DNA of 64,000 bases from contig JALOTL010000006.1 in assembly GCA_025457915.1 (NCBI GenBank), forward strand, positions 124,001 through 188,000. The letters are read 5' to 3'. The notes under the pieces were generated by a model. The model ran no database searches. It saw only the letters and a list, made by a program, of their open reading frames with translations, and was not told the origin of the DNA. How positions within the stretch are numbered: position 1 is the stretch's first letter; each line of letters begins with the position of its first letter. Shown here piece after piece: positions 1,457 to 38,808 of this stretch. A program made the translations under genes and the position numbers. The DNA comes from Spirochaetota bacterium. Its GTDB lineage: Bacteria > Spirochaetota > UBA4802 > UBA5550.

Positions 1457-3448
1457 GTGCTTGAAATGCATATAATAGAAAAAATAAAAAACCGTTACCT
1501 GTCATCCATCAGGGTGTTTTTCGCTTTCAGCATCATGATCGTGCTGCTTCATTTTCTATACCGGATCAGGACGTTTGAACTGATGTCTGACGCCTACGCC
1601 GGCATGGCCGGTTCCGGGTTATGGAATTATATCAGAAATTCGATCAGCCACGACTGCTCCGCCACAGCCTTTTCGCTTGTTGTTTTACTTCTTCTTATTA
1701 TATCGTCAGGGAAAAACACCGTTTTAAAATATGCCGGCGCATTTTTTTTCACCGAGCTGAACATATTTTACATGCTTCTTTCTATTGAATTTTTCCGGAT
1801 ATATGAAACGCCTTTCAGCAGGGACTTCATCCGCAGCGAGAATTTTACCGGCATACCGGAAATGATCGGGTCCGTTATGAGCGAAATGTCCGCATGGTTT
1901 TTTCTCTCCCTCCTGTCCCTTACCATGATTACCGCCGCAATTTCATTACTGCTCCGGAACAGGGAAACCGGATACCATTTAAAAAACACCATGCCCTATT
2001 ATCCGCCGGCTCTTCTGGCCATGCTTGTGCTTGTATCAGCCGTTGTTCCCGCGCATGAATTATCTGCAAAAAACGCCGTCTATCCCGGCAGGAAAAATGA
2101 CATGCAGGAACTTGCAACAAATCCCCTGCTGAACCTTTTTGTGAAAAGCGGAAAAAATGATGAAAGAAATGTTCATGCAGAAGGGGAATTCTCCTTCGGA
2201 TATAATTCAAAATCCATTGAAAATCCCGGCATTAAAAGCGGCTGCAGCCTCATCCCCAGGGGCAAAAAATACAATGTGATATTGTACATGTTTGAATCAT
2301 TTCCATCAAAATACTTCAATCAACAGGCCGGCGGCAGATACGTGACACCCACATGGCACCGACTATCCGGCAATTCCCTGTTCATGGAAAATCACTATGC
2401 AAACTACCCCCTGTCCGCTAACGCCATGTTCTCAATACTTGCTTCATCGTACGAGATGAACGGAAAGGACCCGGTGATACAGGCCCATCCGGAAATCGTT
2501 ATACAAACCCTGCCGGTGACATTGAAGCAGAACGGCTACAGGACGTGCCTGATCCATACCGGAGGACTGGGATATGCCGGGCAGAACAGGTTCCTCCGCA
2601 ACAGGGGCTTCGACGAAATCCTCGAGTACCGGCACTTGAAAGATTCGCCACCGTACAATATCCAGGTCGGCTGGGGCCTTGATGAAAGGTCCATGACGCG
2701 TCCTGGAATAAACTTCATGAAAAGGGATAAAAATAACCCTTTTTTTATCATCTTCCAACCGGTAAATCCGCATCATCCCTACGCCATTCCGGATAAAAGC
2801 TTCAAAATCACTGGCGATGTCCCTGAAGGCGCGGATTTTAAAACAAGAAGCTGGATGAATTATCTCAACTCCCTTCACTATGCCGACCACTGCCTTGCGG
2901 ATCTTGTAGACAGCCTGGAACGGGAGGGACTCATGGAGAACACCCTGCTTTTTCTTGTGGCCGACCACGGGGAAGCCTTTTATCAGCACAGAAGGAATTA
3001 TAATCATCCCCTTTATCTCTACGAGGAGAATGTCCATGTGCCGTTCTTGATTTACAACAGGAACCTGTTCGACCGCAGGGTCGATTTCAAGGGGATCACG
3101 CGGCATATAGATTTAATGCCGACGATACTGGATGCGATAGGGATAAAAAGACCGGCAACAGCCGAAGGAGTTTCGATTTTATCCACAGGCAGGGAGCAGA
3201 TGGCAATTCTTCATACTTCATGGAGGGAAGAAATCCTGGGCGTAAGGGACGGGCGCTGGAAATATATCTACAACATGACCGCGGGCGTCCAGGAGCTTTA
3301 TGATCTCGATTCTGATCCTGATGAAAAAACGGATCTTTCCGGTAAAAAAGCTGAAATCGCTGGAAGATACTCCGATGTCGTGAAAAAATCCATATCATAC
3401 AGGGACGGATTCTTCAGGATCATGCTGAAAAAAAATCACGAGAGATAG
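1457..3448 (+). CDS. LTA-synthase-like membrane sulfatase/phosphoglycerol transferase
   Basis: 663 residues with a multi-helix N-terminal membrane part (roughly residues 15-200) and a C-terminal alkaline-phosphatase/sulfatase fold. The metal site is visible at 'NVILYMFESFPS' and 'VADHGEAFYQH', with 'YEENVHVPFLIYN' behind it. The residue expected to be the nucleophile lies in 'YPLSANAMFS' as Ser, where LtaS has Thr; that assignment is uncertain. The family moves phosphoglycerol or phosphoethanolamine onto envelope polymers on the outer face of the membrane. The start is GTG at 1457; ATG at 1466 is an alternative. A weak TTGACC-16-TATCCT promoter lies at about 1416-1443. Its 3' end overlaps the convergent MFS gene by 13 bases. 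Confidence 0.85.
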   Translation: MLEMHIIEKIKNRYLSSIRVFFAFSIMIVLLHFLYRIRTFELMSDAYAGMAGSGLWNYIRNSISHDCSATAFSLVVLLLLIISSGKNTVLKYAGAFFFTELNIFYMLLSIEFFRIYETPFSRDFIRSENFTGIPEMIGSVMSEMSAWFFLSLLSLTMITAAISLLLRNRETGYHLKNTMPYYPPALLAMLVLVSAVVPAHELSAKNAVYPGRKNDMQELATNPLLNLFVKSGKNDERNVHAEGEFSFGYNSKSIENPGIKSGCSLIPRGKKYNVILYMFESFPSKYFNQQAGGRYVTPTWHRLSGNSLFMENHYANYPLSANAMFSILASSYEMNGKDPVIQAHPEIVIQTLPVTLKQNGYRTCLIHTGGLGYAGQNRFLRNRGFDEILEYRHLKDSPPYNIQVGWGLDERSMTRPGINFMKRDKNNPFFIIFQPVNPHHPYAIPDKSFKITGDVPEGADFKTRSWMNYLNSLHYADHCLADLVDSLEREGLMENTLLFLVADHGEAFYQHRRNYNHPLYLYEENVHVPFLIYNRNLFDRRVDFKGITRHIDLMPTILDAIGIKRPATAEGVSILSTGREQMAILHTSWREEILGVRDGRWKYIYNMTAGVQELYDLDSDPDEKTDLSGKKAEIAGRYSDVVKKSISYRDGFFRIMLKKNHER

Positions 3449-28100: not shown

Positions 28101-28148
28101 ATCCCGGTTAATTTCTACCATGACATCCCGGTTAATTTCTACCATGAC
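28101..28148 (+). repeat. Perfect 24-base tandem duplication at a gene start
   Basis: Two identical 24-base units (28101-28124 and 28125-28148) each contain the ATG of the next gene, so there are two in-frame start codons at 28120 and 28144. The unit length is a multiple of three, so the frame is kept and only eight residues are added. Confidence 0.9.
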
Positions 28149-30015
28149 ATCAGAAAAAAAGAATCCACAGGAAAGATTCAGGTTTCTACACACACACATA
28201 GCCAAGGAACCATTCATATACGACGTGCTGGATGAAATTGCATCCATGCAGGTCAATGGGATGAAGAACGGCCAGGACCTGGCAACACTCGACTCCCTGA
28301 AAAATTCCAAAAATATTAAAATACCCCTGACGCCCGCCAGGGACAAGAACATCCACTACCTTATCGACCTCCTTTCTAAAACCTATCCCGACATCATCAG
28401 AACGCTGATTTCATTCGGATTCGATATCGATCCCTCGTCAAAAAAACTCAACATAGATGAGAAGATCGAATACACCGTCCTCATCAGGAACGAAGACTTC
28501 AACAGGCTCCAGGCCGAAAGGGACCGGAAATCAGTGGAAAGTTTACTGGCTCTACTGAGAAGATTCAGGCTCTTCAACCTCACCAAACTCGTAAGAAAGG
28601 CAAAAACCAGGAACCTCCTCTCGAAGCTGATTAAATCCGAGCTCGGTATAAACATCTTCACGTTCAAGCACCACGAACTCGACAAAAACAACCTGGAGGA
28701 GGTCGATGATTACTGCTTCCATAGCCTGAATTATGAATCGGTAAAGGAAAGCATGAATACCGATGCCATAAAAAAAATCGTCCAGGGAAACACGGCGCAG
28801 ATCATGCGAAGGCTGAAAAAATTCGGGATACTCAATACTGAATTCAGCGACTACAGGGATTCGAAGCTCGATTACGTACTTCATATATTAAACAACGACA
28901 TCCCGACATATCTCGCGCCTAAAGACCTGATCGAGGTAAAAAACTTCACTTCCCTGAGATCGTGCCTGATAAAGGTCGAAAAGATAATAGACCCGCTGGT
29001 TTCCATGGGCGGAGACATAGCAAATTATATAAGGGAATGCGGGGTTTGCGACCAGTCTTCCCTGATGGCCGTTTTCGACAACGTCAGCGAGGAGATGATT
29101 TCAAGATGGTCGGCCGAGGGCATGGACAAATACAGGATTATCTCCTTCAAAAACCAGATCGGAGGCCTCAGCTTCATAGACGTTAAATACTTCGTCAACA
29201 GAATGAGGGACATCCGCGCGCTGATCATGAAGGGCGACGAATTCGACGCCATGTCCCAGGGTGAAAAGCAGAAAAAAATATCCGACATCGATTTCTACTG
29301 CTCCATAGGCGGCGGCGTGCTCATCTCCGACGAAAGGGCGAAAAACCTGCTCGGCGACAAGGTCAGCGCAGACGAGATCAAAAAGACCATGCAGGAGTGC
29401 GCGGAGTTCAAGAAGCGGCTCGAGCAGGAGTCCCAGATAAAGGAAAGGCTTTCCCTGAAAGAAAAAAAATCCCTGTTTAAAATGATATCGGACTTTTTCA
29501 GCGGGCTGTTCGGAGGCATCAGGCCGCAGGAATCAGGCCAGCGGATTGTCAGCTACCAGGCGCAGTCGCCGAAAATTGAACTTTCAAAAAGAACAAAAAC
29601 CATATACGAGAAGATGAAGGCGGGGGATGACAGGATCATACCCCTGTCCAATTACATAGACCTGACCCCTGAAAACGCGCACCAGATAGATACGGTGATT
29701 TCCGACCTGAGGGCCCACGGCCTGAAAATAGTCGTGCCGGTTTACAACGCAAGGAGAAACCTTTACCCAAACAGGAGCCAGAAGTACCTTATGCCGGACA
29801 TCGAGTATCTCCTGATATCTCCCGAAGCGGGACAGACGGCCGAGGCGATAAGGGAATACACGGATTCACTGTCAGGATTTAAAATAAAGGACGAGAACAT
29901 GCCAGGCCAGGCGATACTGGCAGTTGAAAAATATCTTCTTACCCTGTACAGGCAGAGAAAGGCGCAGATGATAAGAGACAGACAGAAGGAGAGTAAAAAA
30001 CCTTCAGTCAGCTGA
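28120..30015 (+). CDS. Large hypothetical protein, mostly helical
   Basis: 631 residues; the second start at 28144 (623 residues) is equally possible. Not recognised. Composition is charged and helical with no signal peptide and no clear membrane segment; a short hydrophobic patch is 'MISDFFSGLFGG' near residue 460. Notable pieces are 'EKIIDPLVSMGGDIANYI', 'DIDFYCSIGGGVLISDE' and a C-terminal globular part with 'RSQKYLMPDIEYLLISPEAG'. There is no Walker, HTH or nuclease motif. No ribosome site is evident. It ends 12 bases into the convergent FmdB gene. Confidence 0.75.
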   Translation: MTSRLISTMTSEKKNPQERFRFLHTHIAKEPFIYDVLDEIASMQVNGMKNGQDLATLDSLKNSKNIKIPLTPARDKNIHYLIDLLSKTYPDIIRTLISFGFDIDPSSKKLNIDEKIEYTVLIRNEDFNRLQAERDRKSVESLLALLRRFRLFNLTKLVRKAKTRNLLSKLIKSELGINIFTFKHHELDKNNLEEVDDYCFHSLNYESVKESMNTDAIKKIVQGNTAQIMRRLKKFGILNTEFSDYRDSKLDYVLHILNNDIPTYLAPKDLIEVKNFTSLRSCLIKVEKIIDPLVSMGGDIANYIRECGVCDQSSLMAVFDNVSEEMISRWSAEGMDKYRIISFKNQIGGLSFIDVKYFVNRMRDIRALIMKGDEFDAMSQGEKQKKISDIDFYCSIGGGVLISDERAKNLLGDKVSADEIKKTMQECAEFKKRLEQESQIKERLSLKEKKSLFKMISDFFSGLFGGIRPQESGQRIVSYQAQSPKIELSKRTKTIYEKMKAGDDRIIPLSNYIDLTPENAHQIDTVISDLRAHGLKIVVPVYNARRNLYPNRSQKYLMPDIEYLLISPEAGQTAEAIREYTDSLSGFKIKDENMPGQAILAVEKYLLTLYRQRKAQMIRDRQKESKKPSVS

Positions 30016-31589: not shown

Positions 31590-31900
31590 TTATGGATGAG
31601 TGCTCCAGTTTACCTTCGCAAGCTCGAGGAGATTTTTGAGCAGAACGCCCTCATAGAAAAATGCGCCAGTATAATTTCCGTCGGTCCCGACTTCGTTGAG
31701 CCGGACCCCGGCATGCCTGAATTTATTGAGATCATCGACGGTAAGCACAAGGTTTTTGTCCACCGATCCGGATATACTTAGGACCCTTGTGCGTTTTTCC
31801 TGGGGATAAAGCTCTTCAAACAACAAAACGCGGTAAATATTGCACCAAGAAGTATTCCAGCCGTCTTTTTATTAATAACCACCCCTGCAATAACATTCAT
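31590..31900 (-). pseudogene. Broken molybdopterin-domain-like secreted protein
   Basis: Reading left from ATG 31898-31900, a start and hydrophobic signal ('AGILLGAIFTAFCC') are followed by a frame change near 31820. The second frame ('RTRVLSISGSVDKNLVLTVD', 'GNYTGAFFYEGVLLKNLLEL') matches residues about 45-115 of the lipoprotein encoded at 35101 (there 'LTLRVDGMVKKEYVFKSDSL', 'GKFLGTYIYNGIPAYNILEG'). It then ends at a stop after about one third of that protein's length. So it is a frameshifted and truncated paralogue, divergent from the TonB receptor gene. Confidence 0.7.
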
Positions 31901-32323
31901 TTATCTTACATTATATTCCATCTTTTTTTCTTCAATATTAAATTATAACTATAAATAACTTTATATAACAACAAAATATCTATAATTCAAAATTAATTAT
32001 TATATAGTTTAAACTAAGATCACAAGGTCAAATATCAAGTAGCAATACCGATAAATTTTATAAATGATTATAATAAATCCCGGCATTAATTAAATATTGT
32101 TAATTTTAATGTTATTTTATCATTAAAATATAAACAAAATAATCTAATATGACTTAAATAATTAAATAAATAACTTAAATTAACTTTATAAAATTAGTAA
32201 CAATTAATAACTTATAATTACTTAAATTCTTTTAATAATTGACACGAATACCTGCTTTTATCAGAATTTATACGTAATAAAATTTAATTTGCCCCTCATC
32301 CTTTTATCCCAATTGGAGGTCAT
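31901..32323. other. Extremely AT-rich upstream region of the TonB receptor gene
   Basis: About 420 bases of almost pure A/T with no gene. A TTGACA at 32239-32244 with CAGAAT 17 bases on is the best plus-strand promoter candidate for the receptor gene; the ribosome site GGAGG at about 32315 is strong. Such a long AT tract could bind nucleoid proteins or hold extra regulator sites. Confidence 0.5.
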
Positions 32324-34981
32324 ATGAAAAAGTTTTGCCTGTTATTAATCCCAATACTGGCATTATACCTGCTCCCGGTTTCCCTGATGGGACAGGAAAA
32401 TGAAGAGCCGGAAAAAAAAGACCAGCCGGCAATTGAGGAAAAAACTGACGAAAAAGCGGCAGAAGAAAAAAAGCCGGAAGAAATAAAAAAAGAGGAACCG
32501 GTAAAGAAAGAAACGATAAAAAAGGAAGCCGGTAAGACAGTACCCAAAGAAAAAGGAAAGTTTAAAAGCTTCGTCGGCGGCGAAATAATCGTCAGGGACA
32601 AGGCGATAGCGAACGTCGAGGACGCTTCGACCAGTACCTTGATAACAGATAAAGATATAAAAAACCGCTCTGAAAAAACACTGGCTGACTCGCTGGAAAG
32701 CGTTCCTGGCATATATGTTAAAGATTCATCAAAGGGACAGAAAGTCTTCCAGATGAGGGGCCTTGACCACAACACCATGGCCATAATGGTAGACGGAATG
32801 CCATTCGAAGAAGTCTATGACGGCGGCGGCGGAGACATTTCTAGGATACCAGTCATGAACTCCTCCAAGATCATCATAAACAGGGGTGTATCTTCAGCTC
32901 TTTATGGAACGCGCGGAAGCTTTGGTTCGATCAATATAATTACAAAGAAACCTGAAACACAGTCTGCCGAAGCATCCCTCGAAGTAAACCAATATGGGGG
33001 TTTCACAATAAATTCAGCCATAGGATCGCCAGCGGGCAATGCATATTATATTATAAATGGATCGGTAATAAAAGAAAACAGTTATTATGTTTCAAAGCAC
33101 CTCGATAGAAATACCAGGCTGGACTGGTATAACAAACTGGTGCCATGGTATAACTATGCCGCAGGTCAATATGCAAACAATGGCGTTTATCCACCAAGTA
33201 ATGCAAAACTACAGACTTATTTAGGCGGCGTTTTTTCCACATCCTCTGTGACTTCACCCAACCTGACGTTTGACTATCTAAACAACTTCGACAAATGGAG
33301 ACATTCAAATTCGGTCAAATATTACGCGTCAGGCAAAATCGGATATAACTTAACGGATAAAATGGAGGCCGGTGTCAGCGCAAATTATTATCTCGGCAGA
33401 ATGGAATTCAACGGCTTCAGCACCAGTCCGACATCTTCTATAAATACGAATTTATCCTGGTCGAATCCCAGCACTTCAAGCATTTTCCAGGATAGAGCCT
33501 GGTCATGGCCTGAAGACTACAGGTACAACATAATGCTCTATTTCAACGGCGAGTTCGGTGACTTTTCAGTAAGATCGTCCTTCTTCGTGACCATGCAGTC
33601 CAATACCCTCCTTCCATGGTCAAACTTCGCCGAGACGTCATTGCCTGGGAAACCCGGATCAGCGACCGCGGCAACGGAATCCAGGCACGATGAAAATACA
33701 TACGGGTTTTATATTTATCCATCATATTTGATAGCTGACTGGAACAAGCTTAACGGTTTCATACATTACAGGTTCGAAAGTTTCACAAAAAACTTGAAGC
33801 CGATTTACGCATATGGAGGTATCGATCCACTGGGTTATTACGTTGCAAGACATATGACGGCCAAATACATGACACTGGCGCTTGAAGATGAAATGAATTT
33901 CAAGACGGATGCCGGGGACATAAAACTGACAGGCGGCCTATCATATGACGCAATGCTCCTGACTAAAAATGACAGCAGATATTCAAGCGATCTTTATATC
34001 GCTCAATTACAAGTACCGACGGTTTATCAAAATAGAGTTAAATTCGAAAGAGCCTATCCGCTTTGCAACAATATAATGCCGAAGAAAAAAGGATCAATCT
34101 GGGGCGACAACGATTCCTTCAACCCTGTTGTAACACTGATATATGATCCAATCAAGGACAGGCTCAGGTTAAGGACCTCTTTTGCAAAAAAAACAAAGTT
34201 TCCATGGATGCATGCATATTCTGATGTGTCAGACGCAATAACAGCAGCTGCAATATCAATAACAAAGGGAACCGCATCAATGGTTCCCCCAAAACCCCTG
34301 AAACCTGAAATATCGCATAACGCAAACACTGGTTTTGAGTTATGGTTCTTTGATAAAAAAGTATCATTCAGGAATGATTATTTTTATTCAAAATATAAGG
34401 ACAAACTCGAAAAAGTTTACGACCCGACAAGCCTGTTGAGCGGAACATCAAACTGGGCAAATATAAACGGAAGAACTATTAACGGTATAGAAAGTACAAC
34501 AACATATACTGTTGAAAAAATCGCAGATGTTGTAGACCTTAGCACAACTGCATCCTATGTATATATGTCCGCTATTGATGATGCCAAAAACACGACAGTA
34601 ACTCTAGGAAAAAGGGTAAAGGAAACACCGGCGCACCAGGTCATAATGGGACTAACACTTGATTTCATCACGAAGACAAGCTTGAACTTCTGGGGAAACT
34701 CGGAAATTAATCAGATTGTTTATGTCCAGAAAGTAGATCCATTACTTTTCATTTATGCTCCAGGATCCACACAAAATGGAAAAATCTGGTACTCAACTTC
34801 CATGTTCAAACAGAGAAGGCTGCATGATCCTGTCATGCTGAACATCAAGATATCACAGAAACTGATGAACTCTTTCGAGGTTTACGTGATGTGCAAGAAC
34901 CTGCTCGACGACTATAAGGCCGACCCGTTCAACCCAGGCCCCGGCAGGATGTTTTATTTCGGAGGATCAGCTACCTTTTAA
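32324..34981 (+). CDS. TonB-dependent outer-membrane receptor
   Basis: 885 residues. A signal peptide ends near residue 24 ('LLPVSLMGQ'). Residues 25-85 are an unusual Glu/Lys-rich linker. The plug domain follows at about 90-210: 'STLITDKDIKNRSEKTLADS', 'VPGIYVKDSSKGQKVFQMRG', 'MVDGMPFEEVYDGGGG' and 'SALYGTRGSFGSINIITKKP'. The rest is an aromatic beta-barrel ending 'GRMFYFGGSATF' with the terminal Phe needed for outer-membrane assembly. Substrate is unknown; neighbours suggest a cofactor or metal complex rather than sugar. A Rho-independent terminator lies behind it. No TonB, ExbB or ExbD gene is nearby. Confidence 0.93.
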   Translation: MKKFCLLLIPILALYLLPVSLMGQENEEPEKKDQPAIEEKTDEKAAEEKKPEEIKKEEPVKKETIKKEAGKTVPKEKGKFKSFVGGEIIVRDKAIANVEDASTSTLITDKDIKNRSEKTLADSLESVPGIYVKDSSKGQKVFQMRGLDHNTMAIMVDGMPFEEVYDGGGGDISRIPVMNSSKIIINRGVSSALYGTRGSFGSINIITKKPETQSAEASLEVNQYGGFTINSAIGSPAGNAYYIINGSVIKENSYYVSKHLDRNTRLDWYNKLVPWYNYAAGQYANNGVYPPSNAKLQTYLGGVFSTSSVTSPNLTFDYLNNFDKWRHSNSVKYYASGKIGYNLTDKMEAGVSANYYLGRMEFNGFSTSPTSSINTNLSWSNPSTSSIFQDRAWSWPEDYRYNIMLYFNGEFGDFSVRSSFFVTMQSNTLLPWSNFAETSLPGKPGSATAATESRHDENTYGFYIYPSYLIADWNKLNGFIHYRFESFTKNLKPIYAYGGIDPLGYYVARHMTAKYMTLALEDEMNFKTDAGDIKLTGGLSYDAMLLTKNDSRYSSDLYIAQLQVPTVYQNRVKFERAYPLCNNIMPKKKGSIWGDNDSFNPVVTLIYDPIKDRLRLRTSFAKKTKFPWMHAYSDVSDAITAAAISITKGTASMVPPKPLKPEISHNANTGFELWFFDKKVSFRNDYFYSKYKDKLEKVYDPTSLLSGTSNWANINGRTINGIESTTTYTVEKIADVVDLSTTASYVYMSAIDDAKNTTVTLGKRVKETPAHQVIMGLTLDFITKTSLNFWGNSEINQIVYVQKVDPLLFIYAPGSTQNGKIWYSTSMFKQRRLHDPVMLNIKISQKLMNSFEVYVMCKNLLDDYKADPFNPGPGRMFYFGGSATF

Positions 34982-35015
34982 GCATAGGTCATGCGGTAGT
35001 ATGATATAACTTTAC

Positions 35016-35064
35016 AAAACCGGGTCCGCGGCTGTCGGTTACAGTCCGGTTCCCGGTTTTTTTT
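35016..35064 (+). terminator. Rho-independent terminator after the TonB receptor gene
   Basis: AAACCGGG at 35017-35024 pairs with CCCGGTTT at 35052-35059, an inner CTGT/ACAG stem folds the loop, and eight T follow from 35057. It lies between the receptor gene and the lipoprotein gene, so the latter may need its own promoter or read-through. Confidence 0.75.
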
Positions 35065-35100
35065 CATCAAACAAACTCAAGGATTAAACAGGACAAAAAC

Positions 35101-36168
35101 ATGAATAAAAACTTGATATCACGAACCGCATTGATAGTTTTTCTATCAGCGATCACCCTCTTTTCCGGGTGCAGCAAGGATTACCTGGAGATAATGGCAG
35201 TTACAGGGGCCACACCGCTCGCGATCAGGGAAAAGGTCCCCCAATCACTCACCCTGAGGGTGGACGGTATGGTAAAGAAGGAGTACGTATTCAAATCGGA
35301 TTCGCTCAACGCCTTCTCTTCCACGCGCATAAGGACCAGAGAGGTGGCGAAGGACGGCAAGTTCCTCGGCACTTACATATACAACGGCATACCCGCGTAC
35401 AACATACTTGAGGGCATCGCGCCCGAAAAGCCGAAGACCGCTGCATTCGACAAGCCCCTGGACATGCTCGTGGTTTTCACTTCATCCACCGGTAAAAAAT
35501 CCGTATTCAGCTATGGCGAGCTCATAATGACGGACGACAGCCTTCCCGTAACGCTCGCCTTCCACAGAAAGCAGCTGCTGCCGACAACTGACAGGGAAAA
35601 GTACGATAAAAATGTTTACAGGGAAAATATCAAAGGACTCAGGCTCATCTGTCCGCGAGAATCGGACGATGCGAGGTACCTTGACGACGTGGTAAAGATA
35701 ACGCTGGTCGTCCCGAAAATCGATGATTCAATACTTCCCTCGATGAAAAAAGGCGCAAAGTGCGAATCAAAAACGATTACATGTCTCTACGATGGAACAG
35801 AGAAAAAAGGGTCCTTTGAAGGGGTCCCTGTAAGGAAGTTGAACAGGATAGTGCGCGTGGGACACGGCAGGGGATTCAAAACCATTTCCGACGTCCAAGG
35901 CTACGGCCTGAAGGCTTTTCTGGATAAGAACTTCCCGGAATTCGGCGAATCCGATTACTTCCTGTTCGTAGCCTGCGACGGGTACAGGTCGATCCTGTCC
36001 GCCCGCGAAATATACGGGACAAGGGACGGCGAATCCATGATAATAACGAATAAAATCGACGGGAAAGCCCCGCAGGGAAAATACATGCTGATGCCGTCCG
36101 CGGACTATTTCGTCGACAGGAACGTGTGGGGCCTGTCGCATATACTACTGATAAAACAGGGAGAATAA
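35101..36168 (+). CDS. Lipoprotein with two sulfite-oxidase-type (molybdopterin-domain-like) modules
   Basis: 355 residues. A lipobox ('ITLFSGCSK') puts it in the envelope. Two similar modules follow. Module 1 (about 45-205) has 'LTLRVDGMVKKEYVFKSDSL', 'YNGIPAYNILEGI', 'KSVFSYGELIM' and 'LRLICPRESDDARYLDDVV'. Module 2 (about 210-350) has 'SFEGVPVRKLNRIV' and 'VACDGYRSILSAREIY'. This matches the PF00174 oxidoreductase molybdopterin-binding fold, but the sulfite-oxidase Cys ligand is not evident, so it may bind another ligand. A truncated paralogue lies at 31590-31900. The CcsA-like gene follows seven bases after the stop. Confidence 0.8.
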   Translation: MNKNLISRTALIVFLSAITLFSGCSKDYLEIMAVTGATPLAIREKVPQSLTLRVDGMVKKEYVFKSDSLNAFSSTRIRTREVAKDGKFLGTYIYNGIPAYNILEGIAPEKPKTAAFDKPLDMLVVFTSSTGKKSVFSYGELIMTDDSLPVTLAFHRKQLLPTTDREKYDKNVYRENIKGLRLICPRESDDARYLDDVVKITLVVPKIDDSILPSMKKGAKCESKTITCLYDGTEKKGSFEGVPVRKLNRIVRVGHGRGFKTISDVQGYGLKAFLDKNFPEFGESDYFLFVACDGYRSILSAREIYGTRDGESMIITNKIDGKAPQGKYMLMPSADYFVDRNVWGLSHILLIKQGE

Positions 36169-36175
36169 GACTGCC

Positions 36176-36919
36176 TTGTTCACGACCGGGAACCACATAT
36201 ACCTTTACGCGGCCTGCGCCGTTTACGTAATTTCGACAATCGCCTTTTTTGCCGGCCGGAGAAATATCTCCCTTGCCGTCCTGGTTGCCGGTACGGCAGT
36301 ATACTCCCTCTATCTTCTCGGGAGGGGATGGATAGCGGGATTTTTTCTGACGAATCCCCTTGTCGAGGGTCCTTTTTTCCTTCCCTGGATCACTTCCATT
36401 CTGGCAATTTACCTGGCCAAGAAAAAGGACGAATCATGGGGCCTGATTTTATTGATGCTGATCGCCTTTGCGGGTTTCGCGCTGTATTACAGCAAGGGAA
36501 TCATGCCGCCTTCCCCGAATAAAATCGGGACATGGGTGACGGTATTTTTCATGACTGAGATTTCCGCCCATTGCCTCTTCATGGCATCCGGCGTTTACGC
36601 AGCGGCCTTCCTGATACGGGGGACCGACGCGGAAAGGTTCCACGTTCTCGCCATATGGGGATTTGTCCTGTACAGTATAGCCCAGGTAAGCGGCGCGCTC
36701 TGGTGCTACCAGGGATGGGGCGGCACATTCAGGTGGGGCAACAGGCACATGCTTTCAGCGGCGGTATGGATGATTTACGCCGCCTACATACATACAAAGT
36801 ATATCAACTGGGACCGCAGACAAAGATCATGGTACGTCATCGCCGCGGCAGCGGCTGTAGCATACACAAGCTTCTGGTCGTATCTCCATGAAATGACATT
36901 CCCGAGGATCGGCGGATGA
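36176..36919 (+). CDS. CcsA-like cytochrome c assembly membrane protein with degenerate WWD motif
   Basis: 247 residues, about seven hydrophobic helices; the start is TTG. It matches the CcsA/CcmC/HemX fold: 'AHCLFMASGVYAAAFLI' with the conserved His, and 'GALWCYQGWGGTFRWGNRHM' followed by 'VWMIYAAYIHTKY'. In true CcsA the heme-handling stretch reads WGxxWxWDPKE; here it is WGGTFRWGNRH, so W, D, P and E are changed. A heme or heme-like cofactor role remains plausible. It overlaps the ResB-like gene by four bases (ATGA), so the two likely form a complex. Confidence 0.8.
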   Translation: MFTTGNHIYLYAACAVYVISTIAFFAGRRNISLAVLVAGTAVYSLYLLGRGWIAGFFLTNPLVEGPFFLPWITSILAIYLAKKKDESWGLILLMLIAFAGFALYYSKGIMPPSPNKIGTWVTVFFMTEISAHCLFMASGVYAAAFLIRGTDAERFHVLAIWGFVLYSIAQVSGALWCYQGWGGTFRWGNRHMLSAAVWMIYAAYIHTKYINWDRRQRSWYVIAAAAAVAYTSFWSYLHEMTFPRIGG

Positions 36920-37815
36920 AAATCATAAAACAAATATGGAACATCGCTGGCGATCTCAGGCTGGGATTTATCCTCGCCCTTTCATCAGCCTTCTTTTTCC
37001 TCGTGGGTTCATATAATTCATACGTAAATTACAATCTTTTCAATTCGATGAATGAAAAAAGACTGCAGGATTGGATTACGGAAAACCTTGCTTCGCACAT
37101 GTCCGATTCCTGGTGGCTGCCTCCCCTGCTCCTCTCCCTTGCTCTCCTGGCCTCCAACACCCTGGCATGCTCGACGAACAGGATCCTGTCGCTTTTCCGA
37201 ATGAGGGGAAAAACCCCGGCAAAGAACCTCCTTTTCAACTCGATCCCTTCAATCATACACATTTTATTTCTCATAGTGATGGCGGGCCACCTTGTAACCT
37301 TCACGACCGGGTCGATATACAGGGTCAATATAGATGAAAAGTCCTCGATAAAAATCCCGGGTAACGGCGCAGTGCTCACGGTCAAATCAATCGTGAATGA
37401 ATTTTTCCCAATGGACTCAAAGCTTGCCGGCAGAATATCGCAAACGACTGTCGTCCTCGTTGACGGGTCCGGCACAGAAATCCCTGTTTCATACATGAGG
37501 CACGCATCATACGGCGGATACATCCTGCACCTTGACATGGTCAGGGAAAAAAAACCGGAATCCTTCGGCAATGAAAATGACGGCTCCGGCAAAAAGCCTG
37601 TAAAAAACAGAAGGGGCGACCTGTTGTTCCAGTCTGAATACACGGGCATTAAGCCCAAAAATCAAATTGTATTTATTGAAGATCCCGGGATTGAACTGAT
37701 ATTCCCGGCATTTACCGCCATCCTGTTGTTGATGCTTGCTTTTTATATCAACACACTGGCTGAAAAAAATAATGGGATTCTTAATCCAGGGCCGCGACAG
37801 AACAGCCGCAGCTGA
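36916..37815 (+). CDS. ResB-like membrane protein
   Basis: 299 residues. Helices at about 14-34, 63-80, 108-128 and near the C-terminus (258-280) bracket an extracytoplasmic beta-rich part ('SIKIPGNGAVLTVKSIVNEF', 'GGYILHLDMVREKKPE'). This layout is that of ResB/CcsB, the partner of CcsA in system II heme delivery, though it is shorter than typical ResB (about 450-550). No CxxCH cytochrome or thiol-redox gene occurs nearby, so a standard cytochrome maturation role is not shown. It is coupled to the CcsA-like gene. Confidence 0.75.
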   Translation: MKIIKQIWNIAGDLRLGFILALSSAFFFLVGSYNSYVNYNLFNSMNEKRLQDWITENLASHMSDSWWLPPLLLSLALLASNTLACSTNRILSLFRMRGKTPAKNLLFNSIPSIIHILFLIVMAGHLVTFTTGSIYRVNIDEKSSIKIPGNGAVLTVKSIVNEFFPMDSKLAGRISQTTVVLVDGSGTEIPVSYMRHASYGGYILHLDMVREKKPESFGNENDGSGKKPVKNRRGDLLFQSEYTGIKPKNQIVFIEDPGIELIFPAFTAILLLMLAFYINTLAEKNNGILNPGPRQNSRS

Positions 37816-37896
37816 AGCTACAAGAATTTATTTTCTTGACTTTTACTCTCGATTTCAGTTAAGTTTTGCTTTCATAATTCATTATCCGATAAAAAT

Positions 37897-38808
37897 ATGT
37901 CTGAACAACTAATGAACACGAAAGAGGTAGCCGAATACCTCGACATAAACGAAAAACAGGTTTATGCCCTGATCAAATCGAAAAAAATCCCGTGCACCAA
38001 GGCCACGGGCAAATGGCTTTTCCCCAGGGAACTTATCGACCGCTGGATACTCGGCGATTCGGCTAAAGAACTGTCGGCTGGCAGAATAACAGAAATTGAA
38101 AAAAATAGTTCCTTCCTCGCTTCAGGCAGCAACGACCCCGTGCTTGAGGTCCTGCTGAATTACATGAAAAAAAGCCATCCGGGCCTTAATATATTTTCGA
38201 GCAGCACCGGAAGCACCGAAGGACTCCGCCTCCTTAAAGAGGGACTTATCGACATAGCCTGGTGCCATCTCTTCGATCCCCAGAGCGGACGCTACAACAT
38301 TCCCTTCATCTCCTCTTCTTTCAGCGAAATGGACGTAACCGTGGTTCATCTCTTCTACAGGGAGCTCGGATTCGTCTATACCTGGGACAGGGAAATCAGC
38401 ACCTTCGATGATCTTTCAAAAAAAGGCGTTGTGATTGTAAACAGGCAGAAGGGGTCCGGGACAAGGATGCTGCTTGATTACAACCTGGACAGGACCGGGA
38501 TACCGGGCGATTCAATTACGGGATATCAAAACGAGGTATACACACATTTCGAAGTAGGCCTGTCACTTGCCTCCGGAGAGGCCACAGCCGGGATCGCAAC
38601 AAAGGCCATAGCAAGCGTCTTCAGCCTCGGGTTCCATCCAATATTGGTCGAAAGCTTCGACATGGTCCTGCAGCAGCCGACATTCTTTAAAAAATGCGTG
38701 CAGGCGTTCATCGAGACCCTGAATTCCCAGGAATTCCGGACAAGGGTCAAATCCCTGGGCAATTACGATTTCATGGAATCAGGAAAAATAATTTTTCCTG
38801 AATCCTGA
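37897..38808 (+). CDS. HTH (excisionase-type) regulator with PBP-like ligand domain
   Basis: 303 residues. Residues 8-55 form an HTH_17 domain ('TKEVAEYLDINEKQVYALI', 'KWLFPRELIDRWI'). Residues about 80-290 are the PF12727 PBP_like domain, recognised by 'GLIDIAWCHLFDPQSG' and 'VNRQKGSGTRMLLDYNLD'. Proteins with this domain are usually linked to molybdate/tungstate or molybdopterin metabolism, sensing an oxyanion or cofactor. Its position directly behind the TonB/lipoprotein/CcsA/ResB-like genes makes it the likely regulator of that locus (inference). Confidence 0.87.
   Translation: MSEQLMNTKEVAEYLDINEKQVYALIKSKKIPCTKATGKWLFPRELIDRWILGDSAKELSAGRITEIEKNSSFLASGSNDPVLEVLLNYMKKSHPGLNIFSSSTGSTEGLRLLKEGLIDIAWCHLFDPQSGRYNIPFISSSFSEMDVTVVHLFYRELGFVYTWDREISTFDDLSKKGVVIVNRQKGSGTRMLLDYNLDRTGIPGDSITGYQNEVYTHFEVGLSLASGEATAGIATKAIASVFSLGFHPILVESFDMVLQQPTFFKKCVQAFIETLNSQEFRTRVKSLGNYDFMESGKIIFPES

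Follow-up and report, generated by a model that had tools for sequence, protein, structure and literature searches.

Results

Gene content of the locus

The window, by which we mean the whole 64,000-nucleotide stretch of contig JALOTL010000006.1 that was analysed, comes from a draft genome of 50 contigs that total 3.66 Mb, and five open reading frames lie close together on its forward strand. The first (32324-34981) codes for an 885-aa TonB-dependent outer-membrane receptor, TBDT, of which both the beta-barrel (PF00593, 4.7e-23) and the Plug domain (PF07715, 1.7e-17) score above the Pfam cut-off. It is followed after 119 bp by the gene for LP (35101-36168), a lipobox-anchored periplasmic protein with an N-terminal VTGAT arm and, as modelled, two PruR-like SUOX-fold domains. 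The next gene starts 7 bp further on and codes for a CcsA-like membrane protein with a degenerate WWD region (36176-36919); it overlaps by 4 bp the gene for a ResB(CcsB)-like membrane protein with three transmembrane segments, a beta domain and one further transmembrane segment (36916-37815). The last gene, 81 bp downstream, encodes a regulator, REG (37897-38808), made up of HTH_17 and PBP_like domains (PBP_like, 5.6e-55). The TonB receptor and the PBP-like regulator named in a preliminary description of this DNA are therefore both confirmed, while the coupling overlaps that it reported throughout the lipoprotein, CcsA and ResB genes hold only for CcsA and ResB, since there is a gap between LP and CcsA.

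On the reverse strand at 31608-31802 lies the relic of a gene for a protein that we call LONG, of which profile positions 25-89 of 587 are left. The five genes and a broken paralogue had been taken to share one orientation; this is correct for the five genes, but the relic is on the opposite strand and comes from LONG, a different partner, rather than from a copy of LP. A signal-peptide-like stretch is also seen near the relic in another frame (~31823-31900). Radical-SAM proteins identified with Pfam flank the five-gene set, and a 631-aa open reading frame on the plus strand (28120-30015) has no significant Pfam family.

Conservation of the gene set

LP-like matches were found in 25 of 296 genomes of the phylum, 24 of them within the window's order (46 genomes). 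A single LP sequence used as query against genome contigs found no relative, but an alignment used as query succeeded, and a wider genome scan with this alignment-based search gave 26 loci. Within the order, CcsA and ResB together adjoin LP or LONG in 19 of the 22 genomes in which this could be tested (they are absent from G050, G139 and G198, and contig ends intervene in G087 and G210). TBDT adjoins LP or LONG in 19/21 (absent from G139 and G198; untestable in G162, G082 and G216), and several operons extend into genes for ExbB, ExbD, ExbD and TonB. An LP-CcsA-ResB arrangement is also present in the Desulfobacterota, namely at L111 of Desulfosarcina alkanivorans and at L114 of a Desulfobacterales MAG, and a TBDT-LP arrangement in three loci from Acidobacteriota (L102, L115 and L117). 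The preliminary description had suggested a search for co-occurrence of the genes in other genomes, and the set does recur: 24 of the order's 46 genomes have it, and it is also seen in Desulfobacterota. We conclude that the five genes form a conserved unit, more than is expected by chance.

The unit is not invariant. LP is present and CcsA/ResB are missing in G050 and G139, so that the pair is not indispensable, and at L104-L107, L118 and L122, all outside Spirochaetota, LP occurs with neither CcsA/ResB nor a labelled adjacent TBDT. In G198 the system is scattered, with a TBDT-REG pair away from LP and a LONG-type TP_methylase fragment beside that pair (L165, 3616-4062, minus strand). Locus L108 is recorded as 'Bacteroidetes bacterium ADurb.Bin145'; its gene order and proteins are almost the same as at loci of Spirochaetia UBA5763/UBA5550 (L110, L112), this is probably a binning or naming error, and because of the resemblance it was not tallied as an additional phylum. 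A group II intron match lies directly 3' of ResB in D. alkanivorans (L111, 12678-12750, minus strand). A weak LP match in G046 was discarded, as none of the system's genes was present at its locus (L083).

LP is predicted to be a tandem of PruR-like domains

LP had been described as a PF00174-like lipoprotein. Its match to that family falls below the cut-off (E 0.034, 14.2 bits against 24), and the PF00174 profile run on LP's own genome gave no match at E<=1e-3, so that LP would be missed if the family name were used alone. The likeness is upheld at the level of structure, since an AlphaFold model of LP (pLDDT 90.3, built from 26 sequences) matched SoxCD, sulfite oxidases, YedY and PruR in a structure search. 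When aligned with VIA-align, PruR 7rkb fitted LP residues 48-203 (Z 13.2, 121 aligned, rmsd 2.3) and PruR 7kom fitted residues 224-351 (Z 13.4, 117 aligned, rmsd 2.4). Over both domains the PruR structures gave Z 13.0-13.4 across 117-121 residues at rmsd 2.3-2.4, and SoxCD gave Z 14.4. Unrelated folds at low Z in the structural lists for LP and the ResB-like protein were disregarded. On this model LP consists of two SUOX/PruR-fold domains in tandem.

The sub-threshold PF00174 score together with the fate of the Mo-ligating cysteine speaks against LP being a Moco-containing SUOX enzyme: the cysteine of YedY is unmatched in the alignment of the profile of LONG, which is homologous to LP. PruR is likewise described as a periplasmic pterin-binding protein and sensor that has no Mo-ligating cysteine (PMC13259868). 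We put the likelihood that LP binds a pterin or a pterin-metal compound at a little under even. The PruR-like folds of LP, and the role of PruR as a periplasmic pterin sensor given in the same source, could also be read to mean that the locus is a pterin-sensing signalling module of the PruR-DcpA kind, unconnected with uptake, and that its neighbours are incidental. This is highly improbable, as the five window proteins contain no c-di-GMP or other signalling domain, and the adjacent TBDT, along with the ExbB, ExbD and TonB genes of several operons, implies energised import.

Between the anchor and the first domain, 25 of the 26 LPs carry the sequence (S/T)GAT (TGAT in 22, SGAT in 3, with IGGT in the remaining one), and [ST]GA[ST] occurs 26 times in the LP set against 0.99 expected from shuffling. 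In the window's LP the motif begins 11 residues past the lipobox cysteine. AlphaFold gave residues 21-40 a pLDDT of 55-58, which points to a flexible arm. ApbE is reported to attach FMN to the motif D-x-x-[S/T]-G-A-[S/T], with minor effects on loss of the aspartate and best tagging at protein ends (PMC12052999); the aspartate is seen only at L115 and L122 among the 26 LPs. The motif suggests that the LP arm may bear FMN. An ApbE gene is present in the window's genome (G000) and in 41/46 genomes of the order, a frequency that makes its co-occurrence uninformative, and it was set aside as evidence. Many LP homologues have an N-terminal helix and no clear lipobox, which suggests that LP is held at the inner membrane on its periplasmic side.

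A CcsA/ResB-like pair whose CcsA-like member lacks the synthase signature

The assignment of a CcsA/ResB-like pair finds little backing in family profiles, as the CcsA-like protein matches PF01578 (3.9e-6) and TIGR03144 (4.8e-11) below their cut-offs and the ResB-like protein has no significant Pfam family, but it is supported by structure. The AlphaFold model of the ResB-like protein (pLDDT 83) has CcsBA and CcmF as its top structural matches, and it aligns with CcsBA 7s9y at a Foldseek value of 5.3e-4 and a Z of 10.5 across 218 residues. Across 21 CcsA-like sequences W176, W181, W187, W198, H191 and H206 are invariant; H206 is P-His2-like, and H132, which is P-His1-like, is present in 17/21. 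In the ResB-like proteins H115 and H125 are invariant. The canonical WWXD is replaced by FxW(G/S/V) in all 21 CcsA-like sequences, and CcmF has WAWD at the aligned site. Mutations of the WWD region in CcsBA are reported to abolish heme attachment (PMC6299221, which also defines WWXD). From these sequences, the CcsA-like protein appears to have kept the tryptophan-rich region and the histidines and to have lost the synthase signature.

The genome of the window has separate CcmF-like and CcmC-like genes on contig C26, and PF01578 matches occur in 42/46 genomes of the order, mostly at CcmF or CcmC sizes, the two names being given here on the basis of ORF length. General cytochrome c maturation is the task of this separate Ccm system, in line with the earlier view that ordinary cytochrome maturation is not the role of the pair. 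A further family of CcsA-like proteins of about 270-310 aa is found in many genomes of the order, including ones that lack LP.

LONG carries a heme c motif and a tetrapyrrole-methylase domain

Where it is intact, LONG consists of a signal peptide, a SUOX-like domain with a CxxCH motif, a second SUOX-like domain and a C-terminal TP_methylase domain whose nearest PDB relatives are precorrin-4 methyltransferases. The CxxCH is invariant in five aligned LONG proteins. Intact LONG occurs in G135, G166, G071, G195, G213 and G216, in every case beside CcsA/ResB, whereas G107 and the window retain only remnants. At L034 and L046 LONG is divergent from TBDT, in the same place as the relic of the window. 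The motifs suggest that LP, with its FMN-type arm, and LONG, with its heme c motif, may provide two alternative places for a redox group on a common scaffold. It had been stated that no c-type cytochrome gene is nearby; none was found among the window genes scanned, but the lost partner LONG has CxxCH in relatives. An accidental link would be indicated by loci in which CcsA/ResB sit with cytochromes and the TonB gene is absent. No such locus was seen, as TBDT is present in five of the six LONG genomes (G135, G166, G071, G195 and G213) and the contig of the sixth, G216, ends too early to tell.

If CcsA/ResB were a dedicated cytochrome c synthase that supplies heme to LONG as a periplasmic electron carrier, the pair in the window would be a leftover whose substrate has been lost. 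The invariant CxxCH, the position of LONG beside the pair in six genomes and the retention of the P-His2-like and P-His1-like histidines all favour such a role. We nevertheless regard it as improbable, because most genomes keep CcsA/ResB intact beside LP without an intact LONG, because the pair is still kept at L114, where the LONG-like protein has no CxxCH, and because the tryptophan and aspartate of WWXD that CcsBA needs for heme attachment according to PMC6299221 are replaced in 21/21 sequences.

A TP_methylase domain adjoins eight operons, either within LONG or, in G042 and G162, as a separate secreted gene after ResB. The Mo/W reading developed below does not explain this domain, which points towards a tetrapyrrole; a tetrapyrrole ligand is possible. 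TBDT with LP or LONG might then carry heme or a corrinoid, and CcsA/ResB might move or hold the tetrapyrrole at the inner membrane, an arrangement with which the signal-peptide-bearing TP_methylase, the CcsBA fold of the ResB-like protein and the FecCD/FecE importers close to three loci are all consistent. It is decidedly unlikely to be the main function, however, given that the riboswitch, TupA, WtpA, Mo-storage and REG links are all to Mo/W and that most genomes, that of the window among them, lack the TP_methylase partner or retain it only as a relic. The separate secreted TP_methylases at L031 (10698-11609) and L084 (2236-3135) have their GxGxGD loop altered to GMGTAPD and are in a compartment where SAM is unexpected.

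A Moco/Tuco riboswitch precedes TBDT at several loci

A GC-rich hairpin common to several loci was first spotted by eye during a search for a REG operator, and it turned out to be a riboswitch. Scanning of 49 loci, some of them from one genome, and the window with Rfam at gathering level identified the Moco/Tuco riboswitch RF01055 at 8/49 loci, and at seven of these, from two phyla, it lies directly 5' of the system's TBDT on the same strand. Five are in Spirochaetota (L034, at 69.4 bits, L036, L046, L050 and L172) and all belong to one family, f3; two are in Acidobacteriota (L102, 65.8 bits, and L117, 62.5 bits), where the element runs into the start of TBDT. At L118 it lies near the start of LP on the opposite strand (3263-3380, minus strand) and has no obvious controlled gene. 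The same scan found RF01055 at none of the remaining 41 loci and not in the window itself, where REG adjoins instead. RNA matches below threshold that the window gave, BTnc005 among them, were treated as chance, and an RNA scan of 20 stretches upstream of tupA gave nothing credible.

REG is found in 30/46 genomes of the order, comprising 23/24 of those with LP or LONG and 7/22 of those without (Fisher 4e-6; the genomes are related and the value denotes association only). Three of the seven REG genomes that lack LP have TupA-type genes next to REG: G020 has a REG-tupA-tupB-tupC operon, and G122 and G102 have a TupA-like gene beside REG. In G186 a Mo-storage homologue lies about 1.5 kb from REG. 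No REG operator was found with inverted repeats or palindromic EM, where base composition swamped any signal. An identification of REG with TunR was dropped; the architecture of TunR is reportedly unlike that of REG, and the literature searched held no supporting paper.

Tungsten and molybdenum genes lie next to the system in several genomes

TupA is encoded in 29/46 genomes of the order. The TupA neighbours described here were identified by their matches to PDB entries 3lr1 and 5my5 (E 1e-59 to 1e-68 for 3lr1), and they score below the cut-off of the NCBIfam TupA model. In G042 tupABC is divergent from TBDT-LP-CcsA-ResB, in G166 TupA is downstream of LONG and in G082 it follows LP-CcsA-ResB-ExbB-ExbD-ExbD-TonB. 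In G050 TupA comes straight after LP where CcsA/ResB are missing, from which we conclude that the pair is auxiliary and is not the importer. A simple placement model predicts 0.10 TupA copies within about 6 kb where four were seen, a figure that serves as a guide only, as the genomes are related. The window's genome does have tupABC, unlinked to the operon.

A Mo-storage homologue adjoins LP in G139 (2ogx, 5.5e-66); the protein is present in 5/46 genomes, four of them with LP, and is adjacent in G139 only, so that its co-occurrence is weak by itself. At L106 WtpA adjoins LP (2onk, 2e-70), and at L110 and L111 DUF364 and FecCD/FecE are near the operon. According to PMC2954201, DUF364 is found in the context of transport of Fe, W, V and Mo, where the ligands are pterin- or flavin-like. 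AFOR, a tungsten-enzyme family, is found in 24/24 genomes with LP or LONG against 16/22 without, again an association among related genomes, and the window's genome has five copies. The preliminary description had suggested that this locus takes up or handles a metal or a cofactor, of the molybdate or pterin type, and the riboswitch, tupABC, WtpA and Mo-storage neighbours agree with that suggestion. Taken together they provide a strong link of the system to Mo/W.

Discussion

Uptake of cobalamin through BtuB under a cobalamin riboswitch is a well-known example of TonB-dependent cofactor uptake. The present system resembles systems of the BtuB type in having TBDT as the first gene, a cofactor riboswitch upstream at some loci and an ABC importer nearby; it differs in the class of riboswitch, in its candidate ligand and in the addition of LP and the CcsA/ResB-like pair. 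With PruR, LP shares the predicted fold of both its domains, a periplasmic location and the lack of a Mo-ligating cysteine at the site aligned in the LONG profile, but LP is a tandem with a membrane anchor and an (S/T)GAT arm, is encoded in an operon with TBDT and CcsA/ResB and has no DcpA partner that we could see. The pair, in turn, is like the CcsBA/ResBC proteins of System II in that the ResB-like model matches the CcsB half of 7s9y and the CcsA-like protein is tryptophan-rich with flanking histidines, and unlike them in its CcsA-ResB gene order, its FxW(G/S/V), its invariant His191 and the distinct Ccm system encoded in the same genome. Clusters of TBDT with PepSY flavinylated reductases, described for ferric siderophores in PMC8238504, also combine a TBDT with what is proposed to be a system for reduction in the periplasm, although here the SUOX-like LP and CcsA/ResB stand in place of PepSY/FMN_bind, and Mo/W in place of iron. 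ModABC, WtpABC and TupABC, given in PMC6147048 as the bacterial Mo/W importers, are inner-membrane ABC systems; they too take up Mo/W and are neighbours at some loci, but the system described here would act at the outer membrane.

Acquisition of Mo/W is very probably the function of the system, transport itself being what the genes and their neighbours imply. The fuller reading, in which TonB-dependent acquisition of Mo/W is combined with CcsA/ResB as the redox partner of LP, is the one that we favour on balance, with reasonable though limited confidence; the assignment of CcsA/ResB as that redox partner, taken singly, is tentative. In this scheme TBDT, powered by a TonB that is sometimes encoded in the operon, would bring a Mo/W compound across the outer membrane, and the compound would probably be a complex and not a bare oxyanion. 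LP, anchored in the periplasm through its lipid or through an N-terminal helix, would bind it in the tandem PruR-like domains. CcsA/ResB, derived from CcsBA, would serve no general cytochrome maturation and would carry heme b in the inner membrane, as the modelled fold suggests. Electrons would pass from there, in the direction that we envisage, to FMN carried by LP on its (S/T)GAT arm, or to heme c on LONG. Reduction of the compound would then free the metal for an ABC importer of the TupABC, WtpABC or FecBCD type. Expression would follow the Mo/W state of the cell, with REG as the mediator in the window and the Moco/Tuco riboswitch in this role in several relatives.

A more speculative form of the Mo/W reading is that an intact Mo/W pyranopterin cofactor, or a pterin-based metallophore, is scavenged from outside by analogy with BtuB. 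This idea comes from the position of TBDT under a riboswitch that senses Moco/Tuco, from the pterin-type pair of domains in LP and from a CcsBA-derived pair that would have switched from heme export to the handling of a cofactor or of electrons, and we regard it as unlikely.

TonB-dependent metal uptake is known. In the literature searched, mostly outside subscription journals, we found no published outer-membrane Mo/W receptor of this kind, and the combination of a Mo/W substrate class, a PruR-like tandem protein and a re-used CcsBA pair is undescribed there. If the reading set out above is true, there would be an energised outer-membrane route for Mo/W, controlled by Moco/Tuco, by which some anaerobes rich in tungsten enzymes would gather complexed metals or even the finished cofactor. 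It would also mean that the heme-handling CcsBA fold has been put to a second use, which would bear on how heme and electrons pass across the membrane.
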